Positions 3,707 through 61,774 of a stretch of DNA of 64,000 nucleotides are shown piece by piece. This stretch comes from Sinorhizobium terangae (lineage in GTDB: Bacteria; Pseudomonadota; Alphaproteobacteria; Rhizobiales; Rhizobiaceae), in the NCBI RefSeq assembly GCF_009601505.1, contig NZ_WITC01000120.1, positions 124,001 through 188,000 of the forward strand, read 5' to 3'. Each line of letters starts with the position of its first letter. The first letter of the stretch is position 1. The notes beneath the pieces were generated by a model. The model was not told the origin of the DNA. It did no database searches and saw nothing but the letters and a program-made list of their open reading frames with translations. The translations under genes were made by a program, and so were the position numbers.

Positions 3707-6700
3707 TCAGACCACTTCCCGCAGGCGTTCGGCCGTCTGCAGGTCGACGGAGACGAGTTGCGAGACGCCCTGCTCGGCCATGGTAACGCCGAAGAGACGA
3801 TTCATGCGCGCCATGGTGATCGGGTTATGGGTGATGATGATGAAGCGGGTCTCGGTCGAGGCCGCCATTTCGTCCATCAGGTTGCAATAGCGCTCGACAT
3901 TGTGGTCGTCGAGCGGGGCGTCGACTTCGTCAAGCACGCAGATCGGAGCCGGATTGGTGAGGAAGACGGCGAAGATCAGCGCCATCGCCGTCAGCGCCTG
4001 CTCGCCGCCCGAGAGCAGCGTCATCGTCTGCGGCTTCTTGCCGGGCGGACGGGCGAGGATCTCGAGGCCGGCCTCCAGCGGATCGTCGCTCTCGATCAGT
4101 TGCAGTTCCGCGGTACCGCCGCCGAAGAGGTGGGTGAACAGCCGCTGGAACTGCCCGTTGACCACATCGAAGGCGGCGATCAGCCGCTCGCGCCCCTCGC
4201 GATTGAGGTTCTGGATGGCGCTGCGGAGCTTACGGATCGCCTCGATGACGTCGTCGCGCTCCTTGAGAATCGCCGCCAGGCGTTCGGAGAGCTCCTTCTG
4301 CTCTTCCTCAGCGCGAAGATTGACGGCGCCGAGCCGTTCCCGCTCGACCTTCAGCCTTTCGAGTTCGCGCTCGATGCCGTGCATGCCGGGCAGTGCCTCA
4401 TCGGCGGCGAGCCCGGTCAGGCGCATCACTTCATGCGGCGCGCAGGCAAGGCCCTCGTGAATGCGCGCCTCGATCTCGACGCGACGCTCGCGGGCCGAGA
4501 CCAGGCGCTCTTCCGCGCGACCGCGCTTTTCCCGGGCCTCGGCTAGATCCGAAAGCGCAGCAGCGGCAGCTCGATCCGCCTCCCGCTGGCGGCCTTCAGC
4601 TTCGGCGAGAACGTCGGCCGCTTCGCGGCGCGAAGCCTCCGCCTTCTGCAGTTCGTTCATCAACGCGCGGCGCTTGTCCTCGAACTCATCGGGCGCATCC
4701 ACCAACTCCTCGACTTCGTCCCGCGCTTCCGCCTCGCGCTCGCGCAGCGTACCGATGTGTTCCTCGGCACTGGCCGCCCTCGCCCGCCACGTCTCGCGCT
4801 CCGCAGCGATTGCCGAAAGGCGGCGCAAGCGCATCTCGTTCTCGCGGGCGAGGCTATCATGGGCAGCACGCGCCTCCGCGACTGCGGCGCGATCGGCGGC
4901 AACCGCCGTCGTCTGGTTGCGCAGATTGAGCTCAAGTTCGGAGAGATCCGGGGTTGTGGCGAGCGCGTCGTTGGCCGCCTCGATCTGTTCTGCCGCCTCC
5001 TCGACCTGCCCCTGCAGTTGAAGCTTGGTTTCGGCAAGAACGGCGCGGCGGCGGGCGAGATCGCCCGAGGCACGCTCGGCTGCAGCCAGCGCTTCCCGCG
5101 CCTCGGCAAGTTGACGGCCGATCATGCGTTGGGCATCGCGCGCAAGTCGCAGCCGCTCATCCTCGGCACGGATGCGTGCACCGGCCGCGGTGAGATCGGC
5201 TTCGGCCCGCCGCAGCGCTTCGGTCGCATCCTCGGTCTCGCTCTCGAGTTCGAGAAGCCGGTTCTTCTGCGCGAGCCGCAAGGCTGCGGCGCTCGGTGCC
5301 TCCGACCCCGTCACGTGCCCGTCCCAGCGCCAGACCGCGCCTTCCTTTGTCACAAGGCGCTGGCCGGTCTTCAAAAGCGGTAGCAGGCGCTCCGCCTCCG
5401 CTTCGCTTTCGATGATCCCGATCTGGCCAAGCGCCCGCTTGAGCGCATCCGGCGCGCGTACATAGCCGTCAAGCGGCACGGCACCCGCCGGTAAGGGCGG
5501 ATCGGCAGAATGATCGCCGGGCATTCGCCAATGTGCGGGCGCCGCCTGATCCAAAGGCGAATCGAGGTCGTCGCCGAGCGCCGCACCAAGGGCCGTCTCG
5601 AAGCCGCGTTCGACCTTCATCTCCTCGACGATCGCCGGATAGGCGCCGCCGCCGGCCGCCTCCAGCATCCGGCGGATCGTGCGTGCCTCGGCTTCGATGC
5701 CGTTCAACGCCGCACGCGCCTCATCGACCGGCGGGCGGGCAGCAGCCTCGTCGGCGCGAGCGTCGGTGAGCGCCTCCTCAATGGAGACGACAGCCGCTTC
5801 GGCTTCATCGAGCGCAGCCTCCGCGACCTCCACCTGTCCCTGCTTTTCATGCGGATCGGGAAGCGCGGCCATCTGCCGGTCGAGATCATCGAGGTCGCGC
5901 GTCTGGTCGGAAAGCTGGCGGACGAGGCGCGCCTGGCGTTCTGAGAGATCGCGAAGCGTTCTTTCGATCTGATTACGACCCGCCTGCGCCTCGGCACGCT
6001 CGGCCGTCAGCCGTGCGAGCTCGGCTTCGCTGATCGCCAAAGCCTCGTTGGCAGCATCGAGCCGTTCGCGCGTCTCGCCGGCGCGGTCATCCGCCTCCGC
6101 CAGCACGTCACGAAGCTCCGCTTCCTCCTCGTCGAGGCGTGCGAGAATGCCGGCATTGTCTGCAACCAGCCGCTCCTCGCGCGCAATATCCTCGGCGAGT
6201 TGCGCCAGACGGCGCTGCAATTCATCGCGGCGCCTGAGGATCCGGCCGGCATCCTCTTCAAGCTGCGAACGGGCGATCTGCAGGCGCTGTAGCGCCGCCG
6301 CGAGTTTGGCCTCGTTCTCGCGCAACTCCGGCAGTTTGAGGCTCGCGATCGCTTGTGCCTTCGCCGCTTCCATCTGTATTTGCGCCTTTTCGGCGACCAC
6401 AGCGGTGATCTGGTTCAACTGGCTTGTCGCCTCGGCTTCCGCCTCTTTGGCCTGCACCCAGCGGATATGGAAGAGGATCGCCTCGTGCCGGCGAATATCG
6501 GCCGACAGCATCTTGAAGCGGTTGGCCTGGCGGGACTGGCGCTTCAGGCTCTCGATCTGGCTTTCGAGCTGGGACGTCACGTCGTCGAGCCGCTCGAGAT
6601 TGGTCTCGGCCGCCCGCAAGCGCAGTTCCGCCTCATGGCGGCGGGAATGCAGGCCGGAGATACCGGCCGCCTCTTCGAGCAGCTGACGGCGGGCCTGAGG

Positions 6701-7168
6701 CTTGGCGGCGATCAGTTCGCCGATCCGCCCCTGCCCGACCATCGATGGCGAGCGGGCGCCGGTCGATGCGTCGGCAAACAGCAGCTGCACGTCCTTGGCA
6801 CGCGCTTCCTTGCCGTTGATGCGGTAGACCGAACCCTGCTCGCGCTCGATGCGGCGGGTCACCTGGATCTCGTCGCTGTCGTTGAAGGCGGCAGGCGCCG
6901 TGCGATCGGCGTTGTCGAGATAGAGACCTACTTCAGCGGTGTTGCGCGCCGGCCGGTTGCCCGAGCCGGAAAAGATCACGTCGTCCATGCCGGAGGCGCG
7001 CATGTTCTTGTAGGAGTTTTCGCCCATCACCCAGCGCAGCGCCTCGACAAGGTTCGACTTGCCGCAGCCGTTTGGCCCGACGACGCCGGTCAGGCCGCGC
7101 TCGATAACGAATTCGGTCGGTTCGACGAAGGACTTGAAGCCGAGCAGGCGGAGCTTGTTGAACTTCAT
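3707..7168 (-). CDS. smc: Chromosome segregation ATPase SMC
   Basis: This 1153-residue SMC protein condenses and segregates the chromosome, normally as a homodimer with ScpA/ScpB. The head begins MKFNKLRLLGFKSFVEP, and Walker A GPNGCGKS is at residues 31-38. Two long coiled coils rich in E, A, R and L flank a hinge near residues 540-640. The C-terminal head has the signature LSGGEQALTAMAL near residue 1050 and Walker B CVLDEVDAPLDD. The frame is open 92 codons further upstream, but that part is encoded by palindromic repeats, so the ATG at 7168 is chosen because it starts the conserved head. That ATG overlaps the stop of the upstream DUF559 frame (ATGA), so translation may be coupled. Confidence 0.96.
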   Translation of the reverse strand: MKFNKLRLLGFKSFVEPTEFVIERGLTGVVGPNGCGKSNLVEALRWVMGENSYKNMRASGMDDVIFSGSGNRPARNTAEVGLYLDNADRTAPAAFNDSDEIQVTRRIEREQGSVYRINGKEARAKDVQLLFADASTGARSPSMVGQGRIGELIAAKPQARRQLLEEAAGISGLHSRRHEAELRLRAAETNLERLDDVTSQLESQIESLKRQSRQANRFKMLSADIRRHEAILFHIRWVQAKEAEAEATSQLNQITAVVAEKAQIQMEAAKAQAIASLKLPELRENEAKLAAALQRLQIARSQLEEDAGRILRRRDELQRRLAQLAEDIAREERLVADNAGILARLDEEEAELRDVLAEADDRAGETRERLDAANEALAISEAELARLTAERAEAQAGRNQIERTLRDLSERQARLVRQLSDQTRDLDDLDRQMAALPDPHEKQGQVEVAEAALDEAEAAVVSIEEALTDARADEAAARPPVDEARAALNGIEAEARTIRRMLEAAGGGAYPAIVEEMKVERGFETALGAALGDDLDSPLDQAAPAHWRMPGDHSADPPLPAGAVPLDGYVRAPDALKRALGQIGIIESEAEAERLLPLLKTGQRLVTKEGAVWRWDGHVTGSEAPSAAALRLAQKNRLLELESETEDATEALRRAEADLTAAGARIRAEDERLRLARDAQRMIGRQLAEAREALAAAERASGDLARRRAVLAETKLQLQGQVEEAAEQIEAANDALATTPDLSELELNLRNQTTAVAADRAAVAEARAAHDSLARENEMRLRRLSAIAAERETWRARAASAEEHIGTLREREAEARDEVEELVDAPDEFEDKRRALMNELQKAEASRREAADVLAEAEGRQREADRAAAAALSDLAEAREKRGRAEERLVSARERRVEIEARIHEGLACAPHEVMRLTGLAADEALPGMHGIERELERLKVERERLGAVNLRAEEEQKELSERLAAILKERDDVIEAIRKLRSAIQNLNREGRERLIAAFDVVNGQFQRLFTHLFGGGTAELQLIESDDPLEAGLEILARPPGKKPQTMTLLSGGEQALTAMALIFAVFLTNPAPICVLDEVDAPLDDHNVERYCNLMDEMAASTETRFIIITHNPITMARMNRLFGVTMAEQGVSQLVSVDLQTAERLREVV

Positions 7169-7824
7169 GGGCGGGACGCTGGGGCGGACGGCAGGTACCC
7201 CCCTCTGCCGAATACATCGGCTGCAGGAGCCGTGCGGTACCCCCCTCTGCCCTGCCGGGCATCTCCCCCACAAGGAGGGAGATTGGCCAGAAGCGCAGCC
7301 CTGCCCCGCGATAACATCGCGTGTGCCGAGACCACGCCAGGGATGAACCAATACGGTGGCCTGCTGGTGAAGCGGGGCGTTGCCGCTCGCCGATCTCCCC
7401 CGTTGTGGGGGAGATGCCCGGCAGGGCAGAGGGGGGTGGGCCACGAATGCATCACTCGAATGCCCCCTCCCCCGATCACGCGCACGATGTGCTCACACAC
7501 ATTATCGATATCGCGCAGCACGTCATCATTCCAGAAACGCAGCACCGTCCAGCCATCCGCCTCCAGACGCTGGCTACGCTGCCGGTCGTAATCGATATCC
7601 CCTGCTCTCGCATGCTGTGAACCGTCTATCTCGACGATCAGCCGATGCTCGGCGCATGCAAAATCAACAACGTAGCCGGCAATCGGAACCTGCCGGCGAA
7701 AGCCTAGCCCCATCAGGCGGTGCGCACGCAACTCGTTCCAGAGCTTGAGTTCTGCATCTGTCATCGCACTGCGCATGCGGCGCGCATTGGCGCGGGTTCT
7801 CGGCAAAACATCAACGTGAGGCAT
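7165..7824 (-). CDS. DUF559 endonuclease-like protein with repeat-encoded tail
   Basis: The first 120-125 residues form a DUF559 domain related to very-short-patch-repair-type endonucleases. The core reads VVDFACAEHRLIVEIDGSQH followed by RSQRLEADGWTVLRFWNDDV, the usual E-x-D and W-x-V-x-R-F-W pattern of this PD-(D/E)XK-like fold. Family members usually end near 120-130 residues. Here the frame continues to 219 residues because the distal 95 codons are read from inverted palindromic repeats at 7195-7445 (PTPLCPAGHLPHNGGD and similar). The stop overlaps the smc start as ATGA. Whether the tail is functional or the original stop was lost by repeat insertion cannot be told here. The specific role of DUF559 proteins is unknown. 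Confidence 0.8.
   Translation of the reverse strand: MPHVDVLPRTRANARRMRSAMTDAELKLWNELRAHRLMGLGFRRQVPIAGYVVDFACAEHRLIVEIDGSQHARAGDIDYDRQRSQRLEADGWTVLRFWNDDVLRDIDNVCEHIVRVIGGGGIRVMHSWPTPLCPAGHLPHNGGDRRAATPRFTSRPPYWFIPGVVSAHAMLSRGRAALLANLPPCGGDARQGRGGYRTAPAADVFGRGGYLPSAPASRP
7195..7445. repeat. Inverted pair of rhizobial palindromic repeats (CCCCTCTGCC type)
   Basis: One arm at about 7238-7285 reads CCCCCCTCTGCCCTGCCGGG followed by CATCTCCCCCAC and GGAGGGAGAT. The other at about 7396-7440 is its inverse complement, ending GCCCGGCAGGGCAGAGGGGG. A fragment of the same motif starts near 7195. The spacer of about 110 bases shows no gene. The pair lies inside the 3' part of the DUF559 frame and just upstream of smc. 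Confidence 0.75.
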
Positions 7825-7910
7825 GCGATGCCCTCACTTGCTGTAAGCACCGAATGCAAAAAACGGGCGCACGGCTGCCGCCGTCGCCCGCCATTCGAAT
7901 AAGCGAAGGA

Positions 7911-8726
7911 TCAGAGCTTGCTGTCGATGAGGGCCGACATAACGTCAACCGACATGTCCCCCGAATAGTGCTCACCATTGACGAAGAAGGTCGGCGTCGA
8001 CTTGACGCCGAAATCCTTGGCGCCCCTCTGCATCACTGCATTCACATCATCCAGAAGTTTTTGGTTCGTCAAGCAGGCCTCGAAGCTCTCCTGTGTAAAA
8101 CCGGCGAGTTTCGACATCTGCAGGAGCGCATCGCGGCCGTTCTGCGCTGCGGCCCACTGCTCCTGCTGCTTGAACAGCATCGAGATCATCGGGAAATACT
8201 GCCCTTCGGGCGCGCAGCGTGCCAGCATGAAAGCCGCGGCGGCGCGCGGATCGAACGGGAATTCGCGCACGATGAAGCGGACCTTGCCGCTGTCGACATA
8301 TTTCGCCTTGATCGCGTCGAAGGTCTTGTTGTGGAAGTTCGCGCAGTGCGGGCAGGTCATCGACATGTATTCGACGATCGTCACCGGCGCATTGGCTTCG
8401 CCCAGAGCCATTTCCGGCAGCGCTCCCGGTTCGAGCAGCTTCTTCACGTCGACGCTGCCTTCCGACTGCGGCAGTTCAACCTTGGCCGCCGGGGGCGTGG
8501 CTGCCTGGGCGACCTCGGTTTCAGCAGGCTTCGCCTCGCCGGTGGCGGCGGGCGCTGCCGGCGTGGACGCAGTTGTCGTAGCCTCCGTGGTCGCGCTGGT
8601 TTCAGTCGGCGCAGTCGAAGCCGTCTCCTTCTTTTCCTCGCTGCAGGCGGCGAGCATCAGGGCGAGCGCGGCGACGGCGGCACCGCCCAGAAGGCGTTTC
8701 GAAAGGCTCTTTTCGGAAGCGGACAT
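7911..8726 (-). CDS. DsbA-family thiol:disulfide oxidoreductase lipoprotein
   Basis: This 271-residue exported thioredoxin-fold protein carries the active site MTCPHC (CPHC), typical of DsbA-like oxidants and of the DsbG/BdbD type. The N-terminus MSASEKSLSKRLLGG leads into a hydrophobic stretch ending LAAC, a lipobox, so a periplasm-facing lipoprotein is likely. A low-complexity Ala/Thr/Glu/Pro linker (about residues 35-90) separates the anchor from the catalytic domain. The ATG at 8726 is chosen over a frame extension to 8822 because the signal peptide starts there. It probably introduces disulfides into exported proteins. It is downstream of the DciA-like gene on the same strand, 117 bases apart. 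Confidence 0.9.
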   Translation of the reverse strand: MSASEKSLSKRLLGGAAVAALALMLAACSEEKKETASTAPTETSATTEATTTASTPAAPAATGEAKPAETEVAQAATPPAAKVELPQSEGSVDVKKLLEPGALPEMALGEANAPVTIVEYMSMTCPHCANFHNKTFDAIKAKYVDSGKVRFIVREFPFDPRAAAAFMLARCAPEGQYFPMISMLFKQQEQWAAAQNGRDALLQMSKLAGFTQESFEACLTNQKLLDDVNAVMQRGAKDFGVKSTPTFFVNGEHYSGDMSVDVMSALIDSKL

Positions 8727-15480: not shown

Positions 15481-15918
15481 GGCAGGCGGCGCCCACCCGG
15501 CTCGAACGACCGCGCCGGCAAAGCCATCGCGCGCGACGCGCGTGCAGAGGGCGGACCATTCGCATTCATCGCAGGCACCACGGACAGAACCAAGCGCAAA
15601 GGCGCCGCGCATGTCCTGAAGACGCCGGTCGTCGAGAATGAGAACGGAGCCTGGGCCAAGCGGAAACCCAAGCAGGTCGGCTACTGCAGCCAAGGCCCGA
15701 CTGTCGCGACCGCGGATATTCTCGTTGCGGCAATGAGCTTCGGCCAAACCCAGCATCGGCGCACAGATATCGTCCGGCCCTTCGACGATCTCGATCGGCT
15801 CGCCGGCGGAAAGGCGACGGGCAACGACTTGGTAGTTGCGGGTGAACGAGGGCGTATAGCCCTCGCCCACGAAAGTCAGCAGGCACAGAAGGTGATGCCC
15901 GCGCAGGCGAACCGTCAC
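15460..15918 (-). CDS. DUF1284 domain protein
   Basis: This 152-residue protein begins MTVRLRGHHLLCLLTFVGEG, the signature opening of DUF1284. Cysteines occur in GHHLLC, DICAPM, AHCRNEN and GACDECEWSALCT, suggesting a metal or Fe-S site. Family function is unknown. The start overlaps the stop of bioY by four bases (ATGA), so it is probably co-transcribed and translationally coupled with the biotin transporter. The 3' end overlaps the convergent ArsR gene. Confidence 0.85.
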   Translation of the reverse strand: MTVRLRGHHLLCLLTFVGEGYTPSFTRNYQVVARRLSAGEPIEIVEGPDDICAPMLGLAEAHCRNENIRGRDSRALAAVADLLGFPLGPGSVLILDDRRLQDMRGAFALGSVRGACDECEWSALCTRVARDGFAGAVVRAGWAPPALLREEL

Positions 15919-16502
15919 AGCAGGTCCGCCGGCTCACGAACACGGTCCTGGATTCCCTTCAGAACTGCGGCGGCGAGCGCCGATTTCAGGACGGCACCGA
16001 GCAGGAACGGGACGACACCCAACATGACCGCCTTGTCGAGGCCGATCAGCGTCGCGAGCCAGGCCGCGCCGATGACGAGGCAGAGTATGTTGGCGGAAAA
16101 GTGCGCGAGGAAGCTCAGCACCACCCGATCGCCCGTCCAGCCCCGGCCAGCCAGCCAACCAGCAAGGCCGCCGATCAACGGAAAAGAGACAAGATAGCCG
16201 GCGGTCGGACCGGCGAAATGGGCGATGCCGCCGGCGCCGTTTGCAAGCACCGGCAAGCCGACGATGGCTTCCGCCAACCAGGCGAGGATCGCGACCACGC
16301 CGAGGCGCCAGCCGTAGATAACACCGATCATGGTGACTGCGAACGTCTGCATGGTGATCGGCACCGGCACCATCGGCACGCTGATCTGCGAAGAAAGCGC
16401 AAGAAAGCCGGTGCCTGCCAGCACGAACAGGGCCTTGAGCGGCAACGCCTTACCGCCGAGACGAAGCGGATCGAAGGCAGACGCAGAAACGAGTTCGGAC
16501 AT
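15915..16502 (-). CDS. bioY: BioY biotin transporter S component (lone)
   Basis: This 195-residue BioY substrate-binding membrane protein has about six hydrophobic segments. The family loop is SSQISVPMVPVPITMQTFAV, followed by GVIYGWRLGVVAI and GPTAGYLVSFPL. It takes up biotin either alone or with a shared EcfAT module. The ATG at 16502 has a good ribosome site (TAGGAGAACCC on its strand). Two BioR boxes lie 28-56 bases upstream and the bioR gene is immediately upstream, so biotin repression through BioR is expected. A second bioY is at 57155-57718. Confidence 0.93.
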   Translation of the reverse strand: MSELVSASAFDPLRLGGKALPLKALFVLAGTGFLALSSQISVPMVPVPITMQTFAVTMIGVIYGWRLGVVAILAWLAEAIVGLPVLANGAGGIAHFAGPTAGYLVSFPLIGGLAGWLAGRGWTGDRVVLSFLAHFSANILCLVIGAAWLATLIGLDKAVMLGVVPFLLGAVLKSALAAAVLKGIQDRVREPADLL

Positions 16503-16814: not shown

Positions 16815-17483
16815 CTAGCCGACGATCGAAAAGGCGTCGCGAACTTCGCCTGAGGCCGTCCTTACCGGAGTCTTGCCGATCCATCCGACATGACGCTCGA
16901 GAATGGCGGCCGCCTCGTCGCCCTTCCCCTGACGGAGAGCCGTCAGGATCGCGCGATGATCATGATCCGTGCGCGCCTCCCAACTCGACCGCCAGGCCGA
17001 GAAGAGAAATCGGGCACTTGCCGCGTGAAGATCGTCAATCGCGGCGAGCAGGCGCGGCATACCGCAGGGCTCGAGAATGATCCGGTGAAAGGCACGGTTC
17101 GCCGCCTCCCAGGAGCGCACATCTCTGGAACTGTCTGCCGCGGCCGTTGCCGCCTCGGCCCTGTCCAGGATCGCCGGCGTCAGGTGAGGCACGGCGTGGC
17201 GCAGCGCCAGGACTTCCAGGGCGGCCCGCATCTCGGCCACTTCACGCACCTCCTTGAGGTCGAAAGCAGCGACACGCACGCCGCGGCGCGGCTCGCTCAC
17301 GGCAAGCCCCTGCGCCTCCAGCCTACGAAAGGCCTCGCGAACGGGAACATGGCTGGCGCCGAATTCCTCTGCAACGTGATCCTGCCGCAGCCGCTCGCCT
17401 GGCGGCAGCACTCCGGAGATGATCCTTTCGGCAAGCACGCGGCTGATGCGGCTCGCAAGCGTGTCGTCACGTTCCTTGTTCAT
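16815..17483 (-). CDS. bioR: GntR-family biotin repressor BioR
   Basis: This 222-residue FadR-type GntR regulator has an N-terminal winged helix (SRISRVLAERIISGVLPPGE, then EFGASHVPVREAFRRLEAQG) and a C-terminal FCD domain, from about residue 80, with the metal-site-like residues EAANRAFHRII and TDHDHRAIL. The name rests on position beside bioY and on three matching BioR boxes. In Rhizobiales, BioR replaces BirA as repressor of biotin genes. No clear box lies in its own promoter region (17484-17663), so autoregulation is not supported by sequence. Confidence 0.85.
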   Translation of the reverse strand: MNKERDDTLASRISRVLAERIISGVLPPGERLRQDHVAEEFGASHVPVREAFRRLEAQGLAVSEPRRGVRVAAFDLKEVREVAEMRAALEVLALRHAVPHLTPAILDRAEAATAAADSSRDVRSWEAANRAFHRIILEPCGMPRLLAAIDDLHAASARFLFSAWRSSWEARTDHDHRAILTALRQGKGDEAAAILERHVGWIGKTPVRTASGEVRDAFSIVG

Positions 17484-55784: not shown

Positions 55785-55813
55785 TTGCCCTTCCTGAGCG
55801 ACTTGCCTATAGA
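55785..55813 (+). promoter_or_regulatory. Candidate sigma70 promoter of bioMNY
   Basis: TTGCCC (55785-55790) and TATAGA (55808-55813) are 17 bases apart and lie 30 bases before the bioM start. Each matches four of six consensus bases. Confidence 0.35.
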
Positions 55814-55842: not shown

Positions 55843-56523
55843 TTGGATATTCGCTTTACCGATTGCTCGGTCAGCTTCGGCGAACGAGTCGCGCTCCATC
55901 CCCTGACACTCGCCCTTGACGAACGCCGCATCGGCATCATTGGCCTCAACGGCTCCGGCAAGACGACCTTCGCGCGGCTGATCAACGGGCTCGTCAAGCC
56001 GACCAGGGGCCGGGTGATGGTCAATGGCCTCGATACGGTCAAGGACGAGAAGGCCGTTCTCGCCGAGGCAGGCTTCATCTTCCAGAATCCGCAGCACCAG
56101 TTGATCATGCCGATCGTCTGCGACGATATCGCATTCGGACTGAAGAATCGCGGCTTGCCTCAGCACGAAGTCGCCGCACGCACCGAGGCGGCGCTGACGC
56201 GCTTCGGCGTCACGCATCTTGGCCGGCGCCGTGTGCATGAGCTTTCGGGTGGCGAAACGCAACTCGTCGCCATGGCGAGCGTCGTCGTTACCGGGCCGAA
56301 GATCCTGATTCTCGATGAGCCGACCAACCAGCTCGACCTCCGCAACCGCCGCATGGTCGCGGATACGATCGACACGCTCGACGAAGATACCATCGTCATC
56401 ACCCACGACCTTGCGCTTGTCGAAGGCGTCGAAAGGCTGTTGCTCTTCCACGAGGGTCGGCTGCTCGCCGATGGCAAACCCGCCGAAACGATCCGGCGGT
56501 ATCACGAGGTGGCCGGATGCTGA
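55843..56523 (+). CDS. bioM: ECF biotin transporter ATPase BioM
   Basis: This 226-residue ABC ATPase of the EcfA/CbiO type has Walker A GLNGSGKT at residues 34-41, signature LSGGETQLVAMA and Walker B ILILDEPTNQLD. The H-loop is VITHDLALVEG. With BioN and BioY it energises biotin uptake. The start is TTG at 55843, preceded by GAGGA. The stop overlaps the bioN start by seven bases. It heads bioMNY, a cluster known in Rhizobium as a high-affinity biotin importer. Confidence 0.94.
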   Translation: MDIRFTDCSVSFGERVALHPLTLALDERRIGIIGLNGSGKTTFARLINGLVKPTRGRVMVNGLDTVKDEKAVLAEAGFIFQNPQHQLIMPIVCDDIAFGLKNRGLPQHEVAARTEAALTRFGVTHLGRRRVHELSGGETQLVAMASVVVTGPKILILDEPTNQLDLRNRRMVADTIDTLDEDTIVITHDLALVEGVERLLLFHEGRLLADGKPAETIRRYHEVAGC

Positions 56524-57122
56524 CGAGCCTCTACGTGGAGGGCAATAGCTGGTTTCACCGTCTGCCGGTGCGCGTGAAACTCATTGCCCTCCTGCTCCTC
56601 AGCCTCTCGCTCTTCGCGACGCAATCGCTCTACCTGCTCGTGCCCGCCTTCCTGCTCTGCGGATGGCTCTACTTTTCGCTTGGCATGACGTTGCGCCAGG
56701 CACTCGCGCGGATCGGTCTCGTTTTTTTCACCATCCTCGTCCTTGCTGCCGTCAACTTTTTCCTTCTGCCCCTCCCCGAAGTCGCCGCGCTGATGCTGCG
56801 GCTGATGGCGCTGGTGTTCTTCGCCGCCGCGGTGACGGCAACGACGACAATCAGCGCCTTCATGGACGAGATCACGATCCTTCTGAAGCCGCTCGAGCGC
56901 ATCGGCTTGCTCAATGCCGCCGATGTCAGCCTGGCGCTCGGCCTCGTGCTACGCTTCGTTCCCGACATCTTCGCCCGCTATGAGGCGATCCGCGAGGCGC
57001 ATCGCGCGCGGGGCCTGCCGATACGGCCGCTGACGATCATCGGGCCGCTTATCATCCTCACGCTCAAAGATGCGGATACGATTGCCGCGGCCATTGACGC
57101 TCGCGGATTTCGGCGGCAATAA
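56517..57122 (+). CDS. bioN: ECF biotin transporter transmembrane protein BioN (EcfT)
   Basis: This 201-residue EcfT-family protein has about four to five hydrophobic segments (VKLIALLLLSLSLFATQSLY, ALARIGLVFFTILVLAAVNF and others). The two Ala-Arg-Gly coupling motifs occur at residues 164-166 (AHRARGLPIRPL) and 195-197 (AAIDARGFRR); they transmit ATPase motion from BioM. It overlaps bioM by seven bases and precedes bioY by 32. Confidence 0.94.
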   Translation: MLTSLYVEGNSWFHRLPVRVKLIALLLLSLSLFATQSLYLLVPAFLLCGWLYFSLGMTLRQALARIGLVFFTILVLAAVNFFLLPLPEVAALMLRLMALVFFAAAVTATTTISAFMDEITILLKPLERIGLLNAADVSLALGLVLRFVPDIFARYEAIREAHRARGLPIRPLTIIGPLIILTLKDADTIAAAIDARGFRRQ

Positions 57123-57154
57123 ATTCGCGCTTTCTAATAAAAGGGTAGGACCAC

Positions 57155-57718
57155 ATGAACACCAGAGATCTCGTCCTCGTCGCGCTTTTTGCCGCGATCG
57201 TCGTCGTACTTGGCCTCATCCCGCCGATCACGCTCGGTTTCATCCCTGTTCCGATCACGGCGCAGTCGATGGGCGTGATGCTTGCCGGCTGCATCATCGG
57301 CGCAAAACGCGGGGCACTTGCCTTCCTGCTGTTCGTCCTCCTGGTCGCCATCGGCCTGCCCGTGCTTTCCGGCGGACGCGGCGGTCTCGCTGTTCTGGCT
57401 GGCCCTTCGGGCGGCTTCATCCTCGGCTGGGCGGTCGCCGCCTACGTCACGGGCCTTATCGCCGAGCGCTTCATTCATGAGGACCAGCCGGAGAGCCGTC
57501 AGTTCGGCGGGTTCTTCCTGGCCTCGGTCGTCGGCGGCATCGTCGTGCTCTACGGGATCGGCGTGCCATGGCTGTCCGCCGTCACCGGCACGCCGCTGCT
57601 CGCAGCCGCGACAGGTTCGCTCGCCTTCATCCCCGGAGACCTTTTGAAGGCGGCGATCGCGACCCTTGCCGCCCGCGCCGTCTACGCCGGCTATCCGCTG
57701 CTGCCGGTCCGCGCCTGA
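57155..57718 (+). CDS. bioY: Biotin transporter S component BioY (bioMNY operon)
   Basis: This 187-residue membrane protein begins MNTRDLVLVALFAAIVVVLG and contains the BioY pattern IPPITLGFIPVPITAQSMGV with LAGPSGGFILGWAVAAYVTG. It differs clearly from the lone BioY at 15915-16502 but has the same fold, about six helices. It follows bioN closely and is followed after four bases by an acyl-CoA ligase gene, so all probably share one message. Confidence 0.94.
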   Translation: MNTRDLVLVALFAAIVVVLGLIPPITLGFIPVPITAQSMGVMLAGCIIGAKRGALAFLLFVLLVAIGLPVLSGGRGGLAVLAGPSGGFILGWAVAAYVTGLIAERFIHEDQPESRQFGGFFLASVVGGIVVLYGIGVPWLSAVTGTPLLAAATGSLAFIPGDLLKAAIATLAARAVYAGYPLLPVRA

Positions 57719-57722
57719 ACCA

Positions 57723-59225
57723 ATGCCGCTCGCCGAAGCAATCATGCGTCATGCGGGTGAGCGCCCGCATGACCCGGCTTTCCGCTTCGAAGACCGGGTC
57801 TTCTCTTTCGGAGACCTTGCAGCCGACGCGGGCCGCATCCTCCGCGAGATCGAGCAGCGGTCATCGGCCGAGACGGATAGCAGCATTCTGTCCGGCCGCG
57901 CCCGGCTGATCGCGCTCCAGACCGGAAATCACCCGCTCTTTGCTGCTGCCTTCATCGCCGCGACCGCCGGCGGCAATTGCGCCGCGCTCATCGATCCGCA
58001 TCTGCCTGAGCCGACGCGCCGGCGGATGATCGCGCAGCTGCGGCCCGACATCGTCGTCCATCCGGAGGGCGATGCGCTGCGGCTCGAACAGCCGGCGACG
58101 GGAGAAACCGCTCTCATCGACACCGCCCCCGATCGCGTTGGTACCATCCCTGTCGGAGAGGGCGGCGAACCTTTCCTCATCGTATTCACGTCCGGCACGA
58201 CGGGAGAACCGAAAGCAATCATCCGCGATCGCCGGTCCTGGCGTCTCAGCCTCGAAACCGGCCAGCGTTTTTTCGGCATCGGGGTCGAAACGACAACCTA
58301 TGCTCCGGGGCCGCTTGCCCACGGCCTGACGCTCTACGCGCTGGCCGAAAGCCTGAAGGCAGGCGCCGAATTTATCGGCGCCCGGCATTTCGACCCCCGA
58401 CAAGCCGTGGCGACGATCACGGCCAGAAAGGCCAAGCGGCTCGTCCTGGTGCCGACGATGCTGCGGCGGCTGTGCGAACAGGTGCGGGGCTCCAGCATCC
58501 TGCCCTCGGTCGAAGCAATCACCGTCGCCGGCGCGAAGCTCACGCCCGCGGACCGGGAGGCCGCGCGCCTTGCCTTTCCGGAGGCGCGCGTCCTCGAATA
58601 CTACGGCGCGTCCGAGCTCGGCTTCATTACCGTCGCCGGTGCAGCGGACAAACACACGCCCACAGCCGTCGGCAAGGCCTTCCCCGGCGTCCGAGTCCAG
58701 ATTCTCGACGAGGCGGGAAACAGCCTCCCAGCGGGCGAGACCGGCACAATCTTCGTCGAAAGCGCGCTCATTTCCGATGGCTATGTTGCGGGCGGCGATG
58801 GCGCAGGGTTTCGTCGGCACGGCGATCTCGCGACGGTCGGCGATCTCGGCTTCCTCGACCCCGACGGCACACTGCATCTGATCGGCCGTGCCGGAGGGAT
58901 GGTGCTCTCAGGTGGCAACAACATTTATCCATCCGAGGTCGAAGCCGTTATCATGGCCGCCGACAATGTGAGCGCCGTCCAGGTGCTGGGTCTCGACCAC
59001 CCCGACCTCGGCAGCGAGCTCGTTGCCATCATCCAACCGCACGGCGAGGCTGTCGACCATCTTGCATTCGAACGTCATCTTGCCGCCGCCCTGCCGCGCT
59101 ACAAGCATCCACGCAAGATCTGGCTCTGCCGTGAAATGCCGATGACGGCCTCCGGCAAGATCGCCACCAAGGAGCTCCGGCAATGGATCGCGGAGGGAAA
59201 CGGTGCCCTTGAACGCCTCATCTGA
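57723..59225 (+). CDS. Acyl-CoA synthetase (AMP-dependent ligase)
   Basis: This 500-residue ANL-superfamily enzyme has the P-loop VFTSGTTGEPKAIIRDRRSW, motif YYGASELGFITV, the adenylate region HGDLATVGDLGFLDPDGTLH and the C-terminal catalytic Lys in MTASGKIATKEL. It activates a carboxylic acid to its CoA thioester through an adenylate. The acid is unknown. The gene starts four bases after bioY and overlaps the thiolase by 23 bases, tying it to biotin uptake. Possible substrates are pimelate, a fatty acid, or biotin/desthiobiotin with its valeryl side chain, all inferred from context. Length is normal for the short acyl-CoA ligases. Confidence 0.9.
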   Translation: MPLAEAIMRHAGERPHDPAFRFEDRVFSFGDLAADAGRILREIEQRSSAETDSSILSGRARLIALQTGNHPLFAAAFIAATAGGNCAALIDPHLPEPTRRRMIAQLRPDIVVHPEGDALRLEQPATGETALIDTAPDRVGTIPVGEGGEPFLIVFTSGTTGEPKAIIRDRRSWRLSLETGQRFFGIGVETTTYAPGPLAHGLTLYALAESLKAGAEFIGARHFDPRQAVATITARKAKRLVLVPTMLRRLCEQVRGSSILPSVEAITVAGAKLTPADREAARLAFPEARVLEYYGASELGFITVAGAADKHTPTAVGKAFPGVRVQILDEAGNSLPAGETGTIFVESALISDGYVAGGDGAGFRRHGDLATVGDLGFLDPDGTLHLIGRAGGMVLSGGNNIYPSEVEAVIMAADNVSAVQVLGLDHPDLGSELVAIIQPHGEAVDHLAFERHLAAALPRYKHPRKIWLCREMPMTASGKIATKELRQWIAEGNGALERLI

Positions 59226-60402
59226 CCCGGCCCGCACACCCGTCATCATCGCCGCATTGCGCACGCCGATCGGCCGTGTGAATGGCAGCCTGGCCAAGAT
59301 TGAACCGGCGACGCTTGCCGCCCCGCTGATTGACCGGATCATCGCCGACATCGGCATCGACCGCGATGAAATCGACGACGTGCTGCTCGGCAACGCCGCT
59401 AACAGTGCCGGCAACCTCGCACGGCTTGCCGCACTTGAAGCCGGCCTGCCTGTCGCGATCCCCGGCGTCACCGTCGACCGGCAATGCGGCTCTGGCCTCG
59501 AAGCCGTCATCCTCGCGGCGCGGCAGATCCAGGCAGGAGCGGGCCGGTTCTATCTCGCCGGCGGCAGCGAAAGCGCCAGCCGCGCCCATATCCGGCTTCG
59601 CCCGCCGCTTCAGCGCGACGAGGAACTTCAGCCGGTCAGGCGGGCACGGATGGCGCCCGATTCGATCGGCGATCCGGACATGGGCGTTGCCGCCGAGAAC
59701 GTCGCTGCTGCCTGCGGCATTTCCCGCGAACGGCAAGACCAGTTCGCGCTGGAAAGCCACCGACGCGCCGTTGCGGCCGCGGCGGCCGGCAGGTTCCAGC
59801 GCGAGATCGTGCCGGTCTCGACACCAACTGGTCTCGTCTCCAGCGATGAATGCCCTCGGGCAAACGCGGCGCCGGAGACGCTTGCGCGGCTGAAGCCGGT
59901 TTTCGTCAAGGATGGCACCGTGACAGCCGGCAATGCCTGTCCGATCAATGACGGGGCCGCCATGGTGTTGGTGACGAGCCTCGCCGAGGCGCGCCGGCTT
60001 GGTGTTCCCTTTGCCATGGAATTCGTTGACGCGGCGACGGCGGGTGTTGACCCGAACCTCCTCGGGCTCGGTCCTGTTCCGGCGATGGCGAGACTACGCG
60101 CACGCAATCCGGCGCTCGAGATCGCCGCAGTCGAGTTCATCGAGTTCAACGAGGCATTCGCCTCGCAGCTTCTCGGCAGCCTCGATCAACTCGATATTGC
60201 GCCGGCGCGCGTCAATCTCGACGGCGGGGCGATTGCGCTTGGTCACCCCTACGGCGCGTCGGGGACAATACTCGTCGTCAGGCTGTTTTCACAGATGCTT
60301 GCGGCCCCATCCGACACAGAGGGCCTGGCGATGATCGGGATCGGCGGCGGCATGGGCGCGGTCGCTCACTTCCGCAGCCTTGGGCCCGGTCACGCAAGAT
60401 AG
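59203..60402 (+). CDS. Thiolase family protein lacking second catalytic cysteine
   Basis: This 399-residue thiolase fold protein has the nucleophile Cys 95 in VDRQCGSGLEAVILAARQIQ, NEAFA in VEFIEFNEAFASQLL and His 348 in GGAIALGHPYGASG. In typical thiolases the C-terminal motif is C-I-G-G-G-x-G; here it is MIGIGGGMGAV with Gly at residue 379 instead of the acid/base Cys. Claisen condensation by the standard mechanism is therefore doubtful. The start is GTG at 59203 with GGAGGG upstream, 23 bases inside the ligase gene. It ends 13 bases into the convergent thioesterase. Confidence 0.9.
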   Translation: MPLNASSDPARTPVIIAALRTPIGRVNGSLAKIEPATLAAPLIDRIIADIGIDRDEIDDVLLGNAANSAGNLARLAALEAGLPVAIPGVTVDRQCGSGLEAVILAARQIQAGAGRFYLAGGSESASRAHIRLRPPLQRDEELQPVRRARMAPDSIGDPDMGVAAENVAAACGISRERQDQFALESHRRAVAAAAAGRFQREIVPVSTPTGLVSSDECPRANAAPETLARLKPVFVKDGTVTAGNACPINDGAAMVLVTSLAEARRLGVPFAMEFVDAATAGVDPNLLGLGPVPAMARLRARNPALEIAAVEFIEFNEAFASQLLGSLDQLDIAPARVNLDGGAIALGHPYGASGTILVVRLFSQMLAAPSDTEGLAMIGIGGGMGAVAHFRSLGPGHAR

Positions 60403-60791
60403 GTGGTCAGCCATTCGCGTGTGGCGACAGGCAGCGGTACCGGGGCATGACGGGCGGGATCGACCGCCACCCAGACAATCTCGACCTCGGCGACAAGCTG
60501 GCCGGCAGCCTCCACGCGCACCGCAAAGCTCACCGAACTGCCGCCGATCTTCGAGACATTGACGATGAAACGGGCCGGCTCGTCGTAACGCAGACCGCGA
60601 TGGAAGACGCAGGCCGATCGGCGCACGAGATAGCTAGGCTCGTTCCTGACGGTCGGCCGGTGGCGCCACAGGCCGGACAAGGCGGCCTCGGCATGGGCGT
60701 AGTAGGCCGCATTGTGCATATGGCCGTGCATGTCTATATCGCGAAACGGAATGCGGATTTCCGTGACATTTTCCCGTTGCGTGCCGTCCAT
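60390..60791 (-). CDS. Acyl-CoA thioesterase, hot-dog fold
   Basis: This 133-residue 4-hydroxybenzoyl-CoA-thioesterase/FadM-like protein has the motif IPFRDIDMHGHMHNAAYYA (D-x-x-G-H-x-x-N, active-site Asp in the FRDID region) and RSACVFHRGLRYDEPARFIV. It hydrolyses an acyl-CoA. The single-domain length is typical. It is convergent with the thiolase (13-base overlap) and divergent from the MDR reductase (14-base gap), so it is regulated separately but lies within the same acyl-CoA cluster. Confidence 0.87.
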   Translation of the reverse strand: MDGTQRENVTEIRIPFRDIDMHGHMHNAAYYAHAEAALSGLWRHRPTVRNEPSYLVRRSACVFHRGLRYDEPARFIVNVSKIGGSSVSFAVRVEAAGQLVAEVEIVWVAVDPARHAPVPLPVATREWLTTYLA

Positions 60792-60805
60792 GCGAGGCCC
60801 TCACG

Positions 60806-61774
60806 ATGCGTTCTTCTCTGGTTAGACAGTTTGGGGATCCCGGACAAGTGATCGAGCTCGTCGATATCGATCGCGCCGCGCCGGGGGCCGGGGAAGTCGA
60901 GATCGCCATCTCGCTTTCGGCCATCAATCCATCGGACCTGATCCCCGTCACGGGAGCCTACAGCGCACGTACCGTGCTGCCCTTCGTTCCCGGTTTCGAG
61001 GGCGTCGGGGTCGTCACCCGGATCGGGGCGGGCGTAAGGGATCTGAAGCCCGGAGATCGGGTCGTTCCGATCGGCGCGAGCGGCCTGTGGCAGCAGTTTC
61101 TCGTCCGCCCGGCCGAATGGTGTTTTGCCGTTCCTGACGACATCGACGACCAGCAGGCCGCCACCAGCTACGTCAACCCGCTGACGGCTTTGAGGCTCTT
61201 CGAGCAACTGCGGGAGCATTTCGGGTCGCTGAAGGGCCGCAGCGTCGGCGTGACTGCGGCCGGCTCTGCAATTGGCGGCATGTTGCTGCGCCTGCTCGCA
61301 ATGGAGGACGTGACGACCACCGCCATCGTTCGAAGCGAAAAGAGCGTGCGCCACCTTGGCGATGCGGACCGGGTCATTGTCGCGGATGGCGTCAACCTTC
61401 CGCCGCGGCTCACTTTCGACGCCGCGCTCGATGCCGTCGGCGGGAATTTGGCCGGCGAGTTGATCGCACGCTGCGTTCAACCTGGTGGGATCTTCATCCA
61501 GTACGGTGCCTTGAGCGGTGTGCCGGTGCCGCAGGCGGCAATCAGCGGCCGGCCCGATGTGCGTTTCACCTTCTTTTGGCTTAGGACCTGGGTGCATTCG
61601 GCCGGCCGCAATCCGCTCGAAGTCGCCTTCGAGCGAAGCTTTGCGGGTCTGCGTGATGGGCTGTTTGCGAGTCCGATCGCAGCCATTTATCCGTTGAGCC
61701 GTCTCGCCGAAGCCCTGGCGCATCAGGAGGACCCGCGCCGCGATGGCAAGATTCTGCTCGATCCGCGCTGTTGA
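60806..61774 (+). CDS. MDR-family quinone/enoyl-thioester reductase
   Basis: This 322-residue NAD(P)H-dependent medium-chain reductase resembles quinone oxidoreductases and 2-enoyl thioester reductases of the MECR type. The N-terminal GroES-like domain has LSAINPSDLIPVTGAYSART and LPFVPGFEGVGVV, and the Rossmann part has GRSVGVTAAGSAIGGMLLRL. No zinc cysteine cluster is seen. The MECR-like opening (GDPGQVIELVDID) fits an enoyl-CoA reductase. It diverges from the thioesterase and may act on the same acyl-CoA intermediates. The HDAC-like gene follows 62 bases later. Confidence 0.85.
   Translation: MRSSLVRQFGDPGQVIELVDIDRAAPGAGEVEIAISLSAINPSDLIPVTGAYSARTVLPFVPGFEGVGVVTRIGAGVRDLKPGDRVVPIGASGLWQQFLVRPAEWCFAVPDDIDDQQAATSYVNPLTALRLFEQLREHFGSLKGRSVGVTAAGSAIGGMLLRLLAMEDVTTTAIVRSEKSVRHLGDADRVIVADGVNLPPRLTFDAALDAVGGNLAGELIARCVQPGGIFIQYGALSGVPVPQAAISGRPDVRFTFFWLRTWVHSAGRNPLEVAFERSFAGLRDGLFASPIAAIYPLSRLAEALAHQEDPRRDGKILLDPRC

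Follow-up and report, generated by a model that had tools for sequence, protein, structure and literature searches.

Why would a biotin importer be encoded in one run with an acyl-CoA ligase and a thiolase? The question is raised by a locus of Sinorhizobium terangae (contig NZ_WITC01000120.1, positions 124,001 to 188,000; these 64,000 nucleotides are the window referred to below), whose genome measures 7.08 Mb. Here bioM, bioN and bioY are followed by genes for a ligase, a thiolase, a thioesterase and a reductase of the medium-chain dehydrogenase/reductase (MDR) family. We tentatively propose that this set serves the salvage of biotin vitamers, that is, the import of biotin with a shortened side chain and its re-lengthening.

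The bioMNY–ligase–thiolase locus

The locus consists of the following features (window coordinates; ECF, energy-coupling factor).

55785 to 55813, plus strand: promoter-like TTGCCC-17-TATAGA pair upstream of bioM, read by eye and from an alignment of 16 upstream regions, unflagged by a promoter scan
55843 to 56523, plus strand: bioM, ECF transporter ATPase; TTG start; PF00005 (ABC_tran)
56517 to 57122, plus strand: bioN, ECF transmembrane (T) subunit; PF02361 (CbiQ)
57155 to 57718, plus strand: bioY, substrate-binding (S) subunit; PF02632; by tree in the BioY lineage of most such sets; loop residues 71–77 LSGGRGG
57723 to 59225, plus strand: AMP-forming acyl-CoA ligase, 500 residues; ATG start; PF00501 and PF13193 (AMP-binding and AMP-binding_C)
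59203 to 60402, plus strand: thiolase; GTG start; PF00108 and PF02803 (Thiolase_N and Thiolase_C)
60390 to 60791, minus strand: 4HBT-type thioesterase; PF13279 and PF03061
60806 to 61774, plus strand: MDR-family reductase related to mitochondrial trans-2-enoyl-CoA reductase; PF08240 and PF13602

A first-pass annotation of this DNA described the first five genes as tightly packed in one direction, and they are: the successive junctions measure −7, +32, +4 and −23 bases, and each of the five assignments has a Pfam match above cut-off. The same annotation let the thioesterase and MDR genes follow directly. Both are indeed adjacent, but the thioesterase gene is on the minus strand and thus outside the co-directional run. 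It overlaps the thiolase 3′ end by 13 bases, and the divergent MDR gene starts 14 bases from its start. The importer has the composition of BioMNY (ECF ATPase, CbiQ-type T subunit, BioY S subunit); the bioM product scored 188 bits against TIGR04520 (ECF ATPase), below the cut-off of 315. An alternative TTG start of the ligase at 57666 would run into bioY.

The ligase combines both AMP-binding domains with a conserved P-loop and C-terminal lysine, as expected of an acyl-CoA ligase. S157/G158 and K479, which we take to be these two elements, were invariant across 44 aligned ligases, as were G388 and R389. Its best NCBIfam match was PRK07638 (262 bits; cut-off 518).

Linkage in the genus and across phyla

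High-scoring thiolase matches (81–94% identity) were found in 30 of the 31 other genomes of the genus searched; the single genome without one (G023) is 85% complete. Ligase, thiolase, thioesterase and MDR genes were present in all 30 genus loci fetched (our own and 29 relatives), and the altered thiolase residues described below were identical in all of them. An arrangement unique to this strain, which the annotation named as a refuting outcome, is excluded. A strict score for the altered thiolase type was passed by 3 of 337 sampled genomes of the class, our own included, which is a patchy distribution. Plasmid records with the ligase–thiolase pair came from Rhizobium, Azospirillum, Sinorhizobium, Shinella, Streptantibioticus and Microvirga. 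On pSymB of Sinorhizobium meliloti Ak57 (L053, about 5523–7017) the ligase match is split into two unannotated pieces, the neighbouring genes being annotated.

Rhizobium etli CFN42 carries MDR, thioesterase, ligase and thiolase genes together on p42f without bioMNY, and two streptomycete loci (L051 and L057) carry all seven genes together, with the thioesterase gene on the bioMNY strand. Because of these arrangements, we count thioesterase and MDR among the members of the set in the rhizobial and streptomycete lineages, and regard the importer link as common, not obligatory.

A multi-phylum scan of genome contigs yielded at least 80 loci. Among the loci listed, a ligase gene lay beside a thiolase gene, often with BioY, in Pseudomonadota, Bacillota, Actinomycetota, Cyanobacteriota and Fidelibacterota. 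Confinement of the linkage to Rhizobiaceae was therefore rejected, and the suspected link to biotin uptake proves to be old. We collected 75 ligase–thiolase clusters from window, genome-contig, plasmid and whole-genome loci, selected on ligase beside thiolase and not on bioY. A bioY gene lay within 8 kb in 51 of these 75 clusters, which are not independent (seven come from Sinorhizobium/Ensifer). The recurrence in 30 of 30 genus loci and the proximity of bioY to 51 of 75 clusters put the gene association above chance. Two Shouchella loci (L117 and L124) have two tandem ligase matches upstream of an altered thiolase; bioY was not detected near them.

We take TTGTTAAC and GTTAACAA to be half-sites of the BirA operator. 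BirA-like operators (TTGTTAAC-N13-17-GTTAACAA-like; at most three mismatches, and at most 5% of 100 mononucleotide shuffles equally good) preceded 21 of 35 Bacillota clusters and were missing from 14. PMC4016012 describes yhfUTS as one of three BirA-regulated sites in Bacillus subtilis. For Staphylococcus aureus, PMC6391492 describes repression of the yhfS–yhfT promoter by BirA plus biotin in an Escherichia coli reporter strain, and PMC7235819 also gives Bacillota yhfT–yhfS as regulated by BirA and biotin. There the ligase/thiolase pair bears only putative, fatty-acid names.

A proposed route of biotin-vitamer salvage

In the proposed salvage route, BioMNY would import a compound that retains the whole biotin ring but has lost part of the side chain; bisnorbiotin and tetranorbiotin are the likeliest forms. 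The ligase would convert this compound to its CoA thioester, the thiolase would add two carbons from acetyl-CoA, and a ketoreductase, a dehydratase and an enoyl reductase would reduce the new two-carbon unit. The enoyl reductase would be the MDR protein in rhizobia and streptomycetes and a FabK-like protein in Paenibacillus, with housekeeping enzymes acting where these steps are not clustered. Finally, the thioesterase would release biotin. By using acetyl-CoA instead of malonyl-CoA, a starved cell would avoid a biotin-dependent step. Bisnorbiotin is biotin minus two side-chain carbons; this and its abundance make it a candidate substrate. It accounts for 13–23% of the biotin in human urine, according to PMC9106636.

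The direction of the pathway and its substrate are what we infer from the linkage and BirA regulation described above and from the observations that follow; the analysis itself shows the gene linkage, the enzyme classes, the changed thiolase cysteines, the carriers without BioB and a BioY lineage that largely matches the set. Put more generally, and a shade more tentatively, bacteria may take up biotin whose side chain has been degraded, for the most part via a BioY lineage dedicated to this, and restore the valeryl chain by reductive elongation on CoA. The thiolase involved would then be of a class in which the acid/base cysteine has shifted from the loop of CxG to that of pantetheine. Taken together, this would be a widespread and unrecognised form of vitamin repair. 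In the open-access literature searched, we found no earlier statement of such a pooled elongation set or of biotin-vitamer elongation.

A distinct BioY lineage

BioY was present in 45 of 45 carrier genomes searched, versus 9 of 14 control genomes. In a BioY tree, most set-linked BioYs formed one lineage, apart from the other BioYs of the same genomes, which fall elsewhere; about ten of the latter adjoin bioB. In six genomes with an unlinked set (G397, G413, G427, G429, G430 and G433), the sole BioY falls in the set-linked lineage. Across 37 rows of this main lineage, chosen from the tree and leaving out two linked Arthrobacter-type BioYs, G73 and G74 were invariant and R75 was present in 97%.

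The window holds both BioY types. The second, solitary bioY (15915–16502, minus strand; PF02632) lies downstream of a GntR-type gene (16815–17483, minus strand) that we read by eye as bioR. With TTATMKATAA as the presumed BioR box consensus, two exact boxes (16530 and 16774) and a one-mismatch box (16549) lie near the solitary gene. None was found upstream of bioM at up to one mismatch, and BioR control of the bioMNY–ligase–thiolase operon was rejected for this reason.

The linkage to BioY also bears on the best-surviving alternative, a biotin-sparing lipid supply, which we consider rather unlikely. When biotin is short, acetyl-CoA carboxylase would fail and malonyl-CoA would be low; the ligase would then activate scavenged fatty or branched acids and a thiolase-based cycle would lengthen them with acetyl-CoA. 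The importer would merely be a neighbour, both responding to biotin starvation. The same enzymes and the BirA regulation described in PMC4016012 and PMC6391492 fit this idea, the best-named family relatives are fatty-acid enzymes, and the presence or absence of BioB is indifferent to it. However, the BioYs that accompany the set belong mostly to a single lineage, separate from the other BioYs of the same genomes, and a whole ECF transporter is sometimes present as well. Moreover, where FakAB is present, fatty acids from outside can be used without a CoA ligase.

Distribution of BioB

BioB scored above its family cut-off in 22 of 52 carrier genomes searched (the window's genome included, L081 left out) and not in the other 30. 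These 30 include five metagenome-assembled genomes (L059, L066, L071, L108 and L111), and some of the absences may reflect assembly gaps. Also among the 30, two Paenibacillus genomes (G410 and G411) gave BioB-like matches of 91–96 bits, below the cut-off, and G424 has a 40-residue scrap beside a BioY. Within the genus, BioB was found in 26 of 31 genomes searched (our own included, G009 left out). The five without it (G006, G010, G018, G024 and G031) are 99–100% complete, and all retain the set. All five FabK-bearing clusters tested lie in genomes without BioB above cut-off (Fisher p 0.0067); the five are all Paenibacillus and non-independent. Counts of BioF were discarded as an indicator, since paralogues score alike and the gene beside bioB in the window's genome scores below the cut-off. 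BioF-like domains were seen within open frames of about 2760 codons in two cyanobacteria (G402:C55:95174-96226 and G444:C553:3175-4242).

The annotation had suggested pimelate or biotin-precursor salvage. On this account, the ligase and thiolase would make pimeloyl-CoA for biotin synthesis, starting either with pimelate or with glutaryl-CoA and acetyl-CoA. A single round of elongation does turn a C5 diacid into pimeloyl-CoA, BioZ performs a comparable step in alpha-proteobacteria (PMC11089781), 22 of 52 carriers including the window's genome possess BioB, and bioB stands beside the set in both streptomycetes. Against this, the 30 carriers without BioB above cut-off, the five congeners that keep the set without BioB, and the MDR–thioesterase–ligase–thiolase group of R. 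etli CFN42, reported as a biotin auxotroph (PMC8914248), leave precursor supply an unlikely explanation. Because of the 30 carriers, the supply of pimelate or glutarate is weakened as a general role of the set; it could still apply in BioB-positive carriers.

A thiolase with a changed cysteine pattern

Compared with solved thiolases, the window thiolase retains the nucleophilic C95, N316 (NEAF) and H348 (GHP). It has G379 at the acid/base cysteine site of CxG, and therefore lacks the canonical second cysteine, and C246 where canonical thiolases carry serine. The annotation was thus right to call it unusual. Its structure model has a mean confidence (pLDDT) of 94.7, and the structural matches were ordinary thiolases, among the 50 matches listed.

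The change follows the neighbours. When thiolases were grouped by adjacent genes, those with ligase and bioY neighbours had Gly or Ser at the CxG site in 41 of 41 cases, and those with a ligase match alone lacked the CxG cysteine in 19 of 21. The two exceptions (Arthrobacter L112 and L134) have weak or opposite-strand ligase matches. With neither neighbour, the cysteine was kept in 17 of 18, the exception being on a 3-kb fragment. Position 246 was Ser in 21 of 21 canonical rows and Cys in 68 of 71 altered rows; the rows of this comparison are defined by residue 379, so that column 379 itself is circular, while the other groupings rest on neighbours or score. The altered rows without Cys246 are L131 and L132 (Ser246) and L056 (Ala/Ala). 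Simple decay at Gly379 was rejected, given that Cys246 accompanies the change in 68 of 71. Control thiolases from our own and related genomes were canonical at both sites in 24 of 25 cases (two of them already among the 21). The remaining control, L138 (G037:C228), is a degenerate thiolase-like protein with C95, A246, G316, N348 and G379, the residues of position 246, NEAF, GHP and CxG all being changed.

A linkage-independent test used the 30 best-scoring Bacillota thiolases of 299 genomes. The double change occurred in six, all with a ligase neighbour (one, L228, is locus L069 again). Twenty-two were canonical, one of which (L230) has a 154-bit ligase neighbour and no bioY in its 8.7 kb of locus sequence; one (L250) could not be aligned. 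The last, L233, combines both cysteines with a neighbouring ligase gene. Its operon (L257 in G453, thiolase at 7572–8726) comprises ligase, thiolase, dehydratase and a short-chain dehydrogenase/reductase (SDR) plus an acyl-CoA dehydrogenase; bioY was not detected in L257. L257 resembles an oxidative relative of the set in transition, and may be an evolutionary intermediate. In a quick thiolase tree with the three key columns excluded (and ctl_L032, ctl_L034 and L103 left out), a branch supported at 99% separated the canonical rows from the others. One thiolase (L121), from a record titled Vibrio cholerae strain 35D, nests among Arthrobacter thiolases; this assembly is probably mislabelled or contaminated.

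By motif, we take position 246 to be the equivalent of human T2 Ser284. That serine lies in the pantetheine-binding loop (PMC6790690). We infer that Cys246 takes over as the lost catalytic base. No earlier statement of this cysteine change was found in the open-access literature searched. Whatever pathway proves right, the paired change offers a naturally occurring test of how thiolases work.

Alternatively, the altered thiolase may no longer condense and may, as an acyltransferase or hydrolase, pass a biotinyl group (or another acyl group) from CoA on to some acceptor. It would fit that all 41 thiolases with both ligase and bioY neighbours lack the acid/base cysteine, and a thiolase-like protein without that cysteine is described as inactive as a thiolase (PMC3406046). 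We regard this as improbable, given Cys246 in 68 of 71, SCP2 thiolases that likewise draw a cysteine from another loop (PMC7682436) and neighbours that provide the remaining steps of an elongation cycle.

Partner enzymes and the direction of the pathway

Neighbour clustering placed FAS1_DH/HadA-like, MaoC/HadB-like and FabG-like SDR genes downstream of the thiolase gene in Bacillota loci; some also carry ECF ATPase, T-subunit-like and FabK-like reductase genes. A separate neighbour survey covered 78 of 214 unlabelled open reading frames and listed 25 of 97 families. L073 and L079 have the order BioY–ligase–thiolase–HadA–HadB–SDR–ECF ATPases–T subunit–FabK. In the 75 clusters we counted hadA 16, hadB 16, sdr 17, fabK 7, mdr 16 and tes (thioesterase) 16 times, L257 being left out of the hadA and sdr counts. 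Thiolase, ketoreductase, dehydratase and enoyl reductase occur together in the seven FabK-bearing clusters; of these, the window has thiolase and MDR. Two FabK-like proteins scored 278 and 287 bits against TIGR03151 (cut-off 453). The best PDB relative of the window MDR was 3gms, a putative quinone reductase, followed by 7ayc, 2vcy and 1zsy; its relation to trans-2-enoyl-CoA reductase has an E value of about 1e-31. Judged by these gene families, the pooled clusters appear to form a reductive two-carbon elongation set.

To look for oxidative genes, we took queries from the window's genome, five of them acyl-CoA dehydrogenases and another five enoyl-CoA hydratases. Within 3.5 kb of the altered thiolases (genome-contig loci and L040), there was one 55-residue dehydrogenase-like stretch (L070) and one enoyl-CoA hydratase-like gene (L040, 1.3 kb from the thiolase). 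The other 21 loci had hydratases at 18 and an acyl-CoA dehydrogenase at one. Because the dehydrogenase is absent from all but 1 of these 21 as well, its absence discriminates little between directions, and the enoyl reductases are the better argument. Of the two functions first envisaged, to shorten or to build a chain, building is thus favoured and shortening weakened. Oxidative removal of the biotin valeryl side chain, the catabolic form of that suggestion, is very unlikely: ligase, hydratase, dehydrogenase and thiolase could run oxidatively, and the related operon L257, whose thiolase has the old cysteine, includes an acyl-CoA dehydrogenase, but enoyl reductases occur in the clusters, repression by biotin as described for the Bacillota form has the wrong sign for catabolism and, a weak point, no acyl-CoA dehydrogenase was found beside the set apart from the L070 stretch.

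Evidence against salvage and its implications

Several observations weigh against biotin-vitamer salvage. BioB is present in 22 of the 52 carriers, and bioB adjoins the seven-gene set, just beyond MDR, in the streptomycetes (L057, 583–1494; L051, 87–998). Of the proposed enzymes, the window has no more than ligase, thiolase, MDR and thioesterase; many clusters contain just the ligase–thiolase pair, and the R. etli group does without bioMNY. Two linked Arthrobacter-type BioYs fall outside the main lineage, and in G404 and G445, whose sets include FabK, the sole BioY belongs to a neighbouring lineage. The matches at L070 and L040, the slight value of missing dehydrogenases and the lack of a BioR box upstream of bioM belong here too. 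Condensation with acetyl-CoA is uphill, and no report of growth on bisnorbiotin was found in the literature searched.

If salvage is nevertheless correct, shortened biotin from other organisms would be a usable vitamin source, and the genome-based reading of biotin auxotrophy would change. For the ligase–thiolase pair of the known Bacillus/Staphylococcus biotin regulon, the present comparison supplies partner enzymes and a likely direction, and it names a substrate that can be tested.

Comparison with known systems

The locus shares with the ECF biotin transporter BioMNY the A, T and S subunits in order; it differs in that the operon runs on, nearly gapless, into ligase and thiolase. B. subtilis yhfUTS has the gene order bioY (yhfU)–ligase (yhfT)–thiolase (yhfS), as in Bacillota clusters. 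We judged likeness to YhfS and YhfT by family profiles and gene order. In the Bacillota relative L106, the ligase passes the PRK07638 cut-off and the thiolase that of PRK06690, which the B. subtilis control genome also matches. The window proteins stay below these equivalog cut-offs (thiolase 359 versus 498 bits, PRK06690; ligase 262 versus 518 bits, PRK07638), and the window adds dedicated BioMN, MDR and thioesterase, with no BioR site upstream of bioM.

The BioZ pathway (glutaryl-CoA plus malonyl-acyl carrier protein), as described in PMC11089781, is likewise a biotin-linked two-carbon lengthening by a condensing enzyme. It serves de novo synthesis, whereas the ligase–thiolase set persists in many genomes without BioB above cut-off. 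Among reductases, MECR is a named but distant relative of the window MDR, whose best PDB match is the putative quinone reductase, and FabK is a named relative of the Paenibacillus reductase, which scores below the FabK cut-off. For SCP2-type thiolases, PMC7682436 likewise describes a missing CxG cysteine and a cysteine that comes from another loop. They have HDCF in place of NEAF, whereas the window thiolase keeps NEAF and carries its extra cysteine at position 246.

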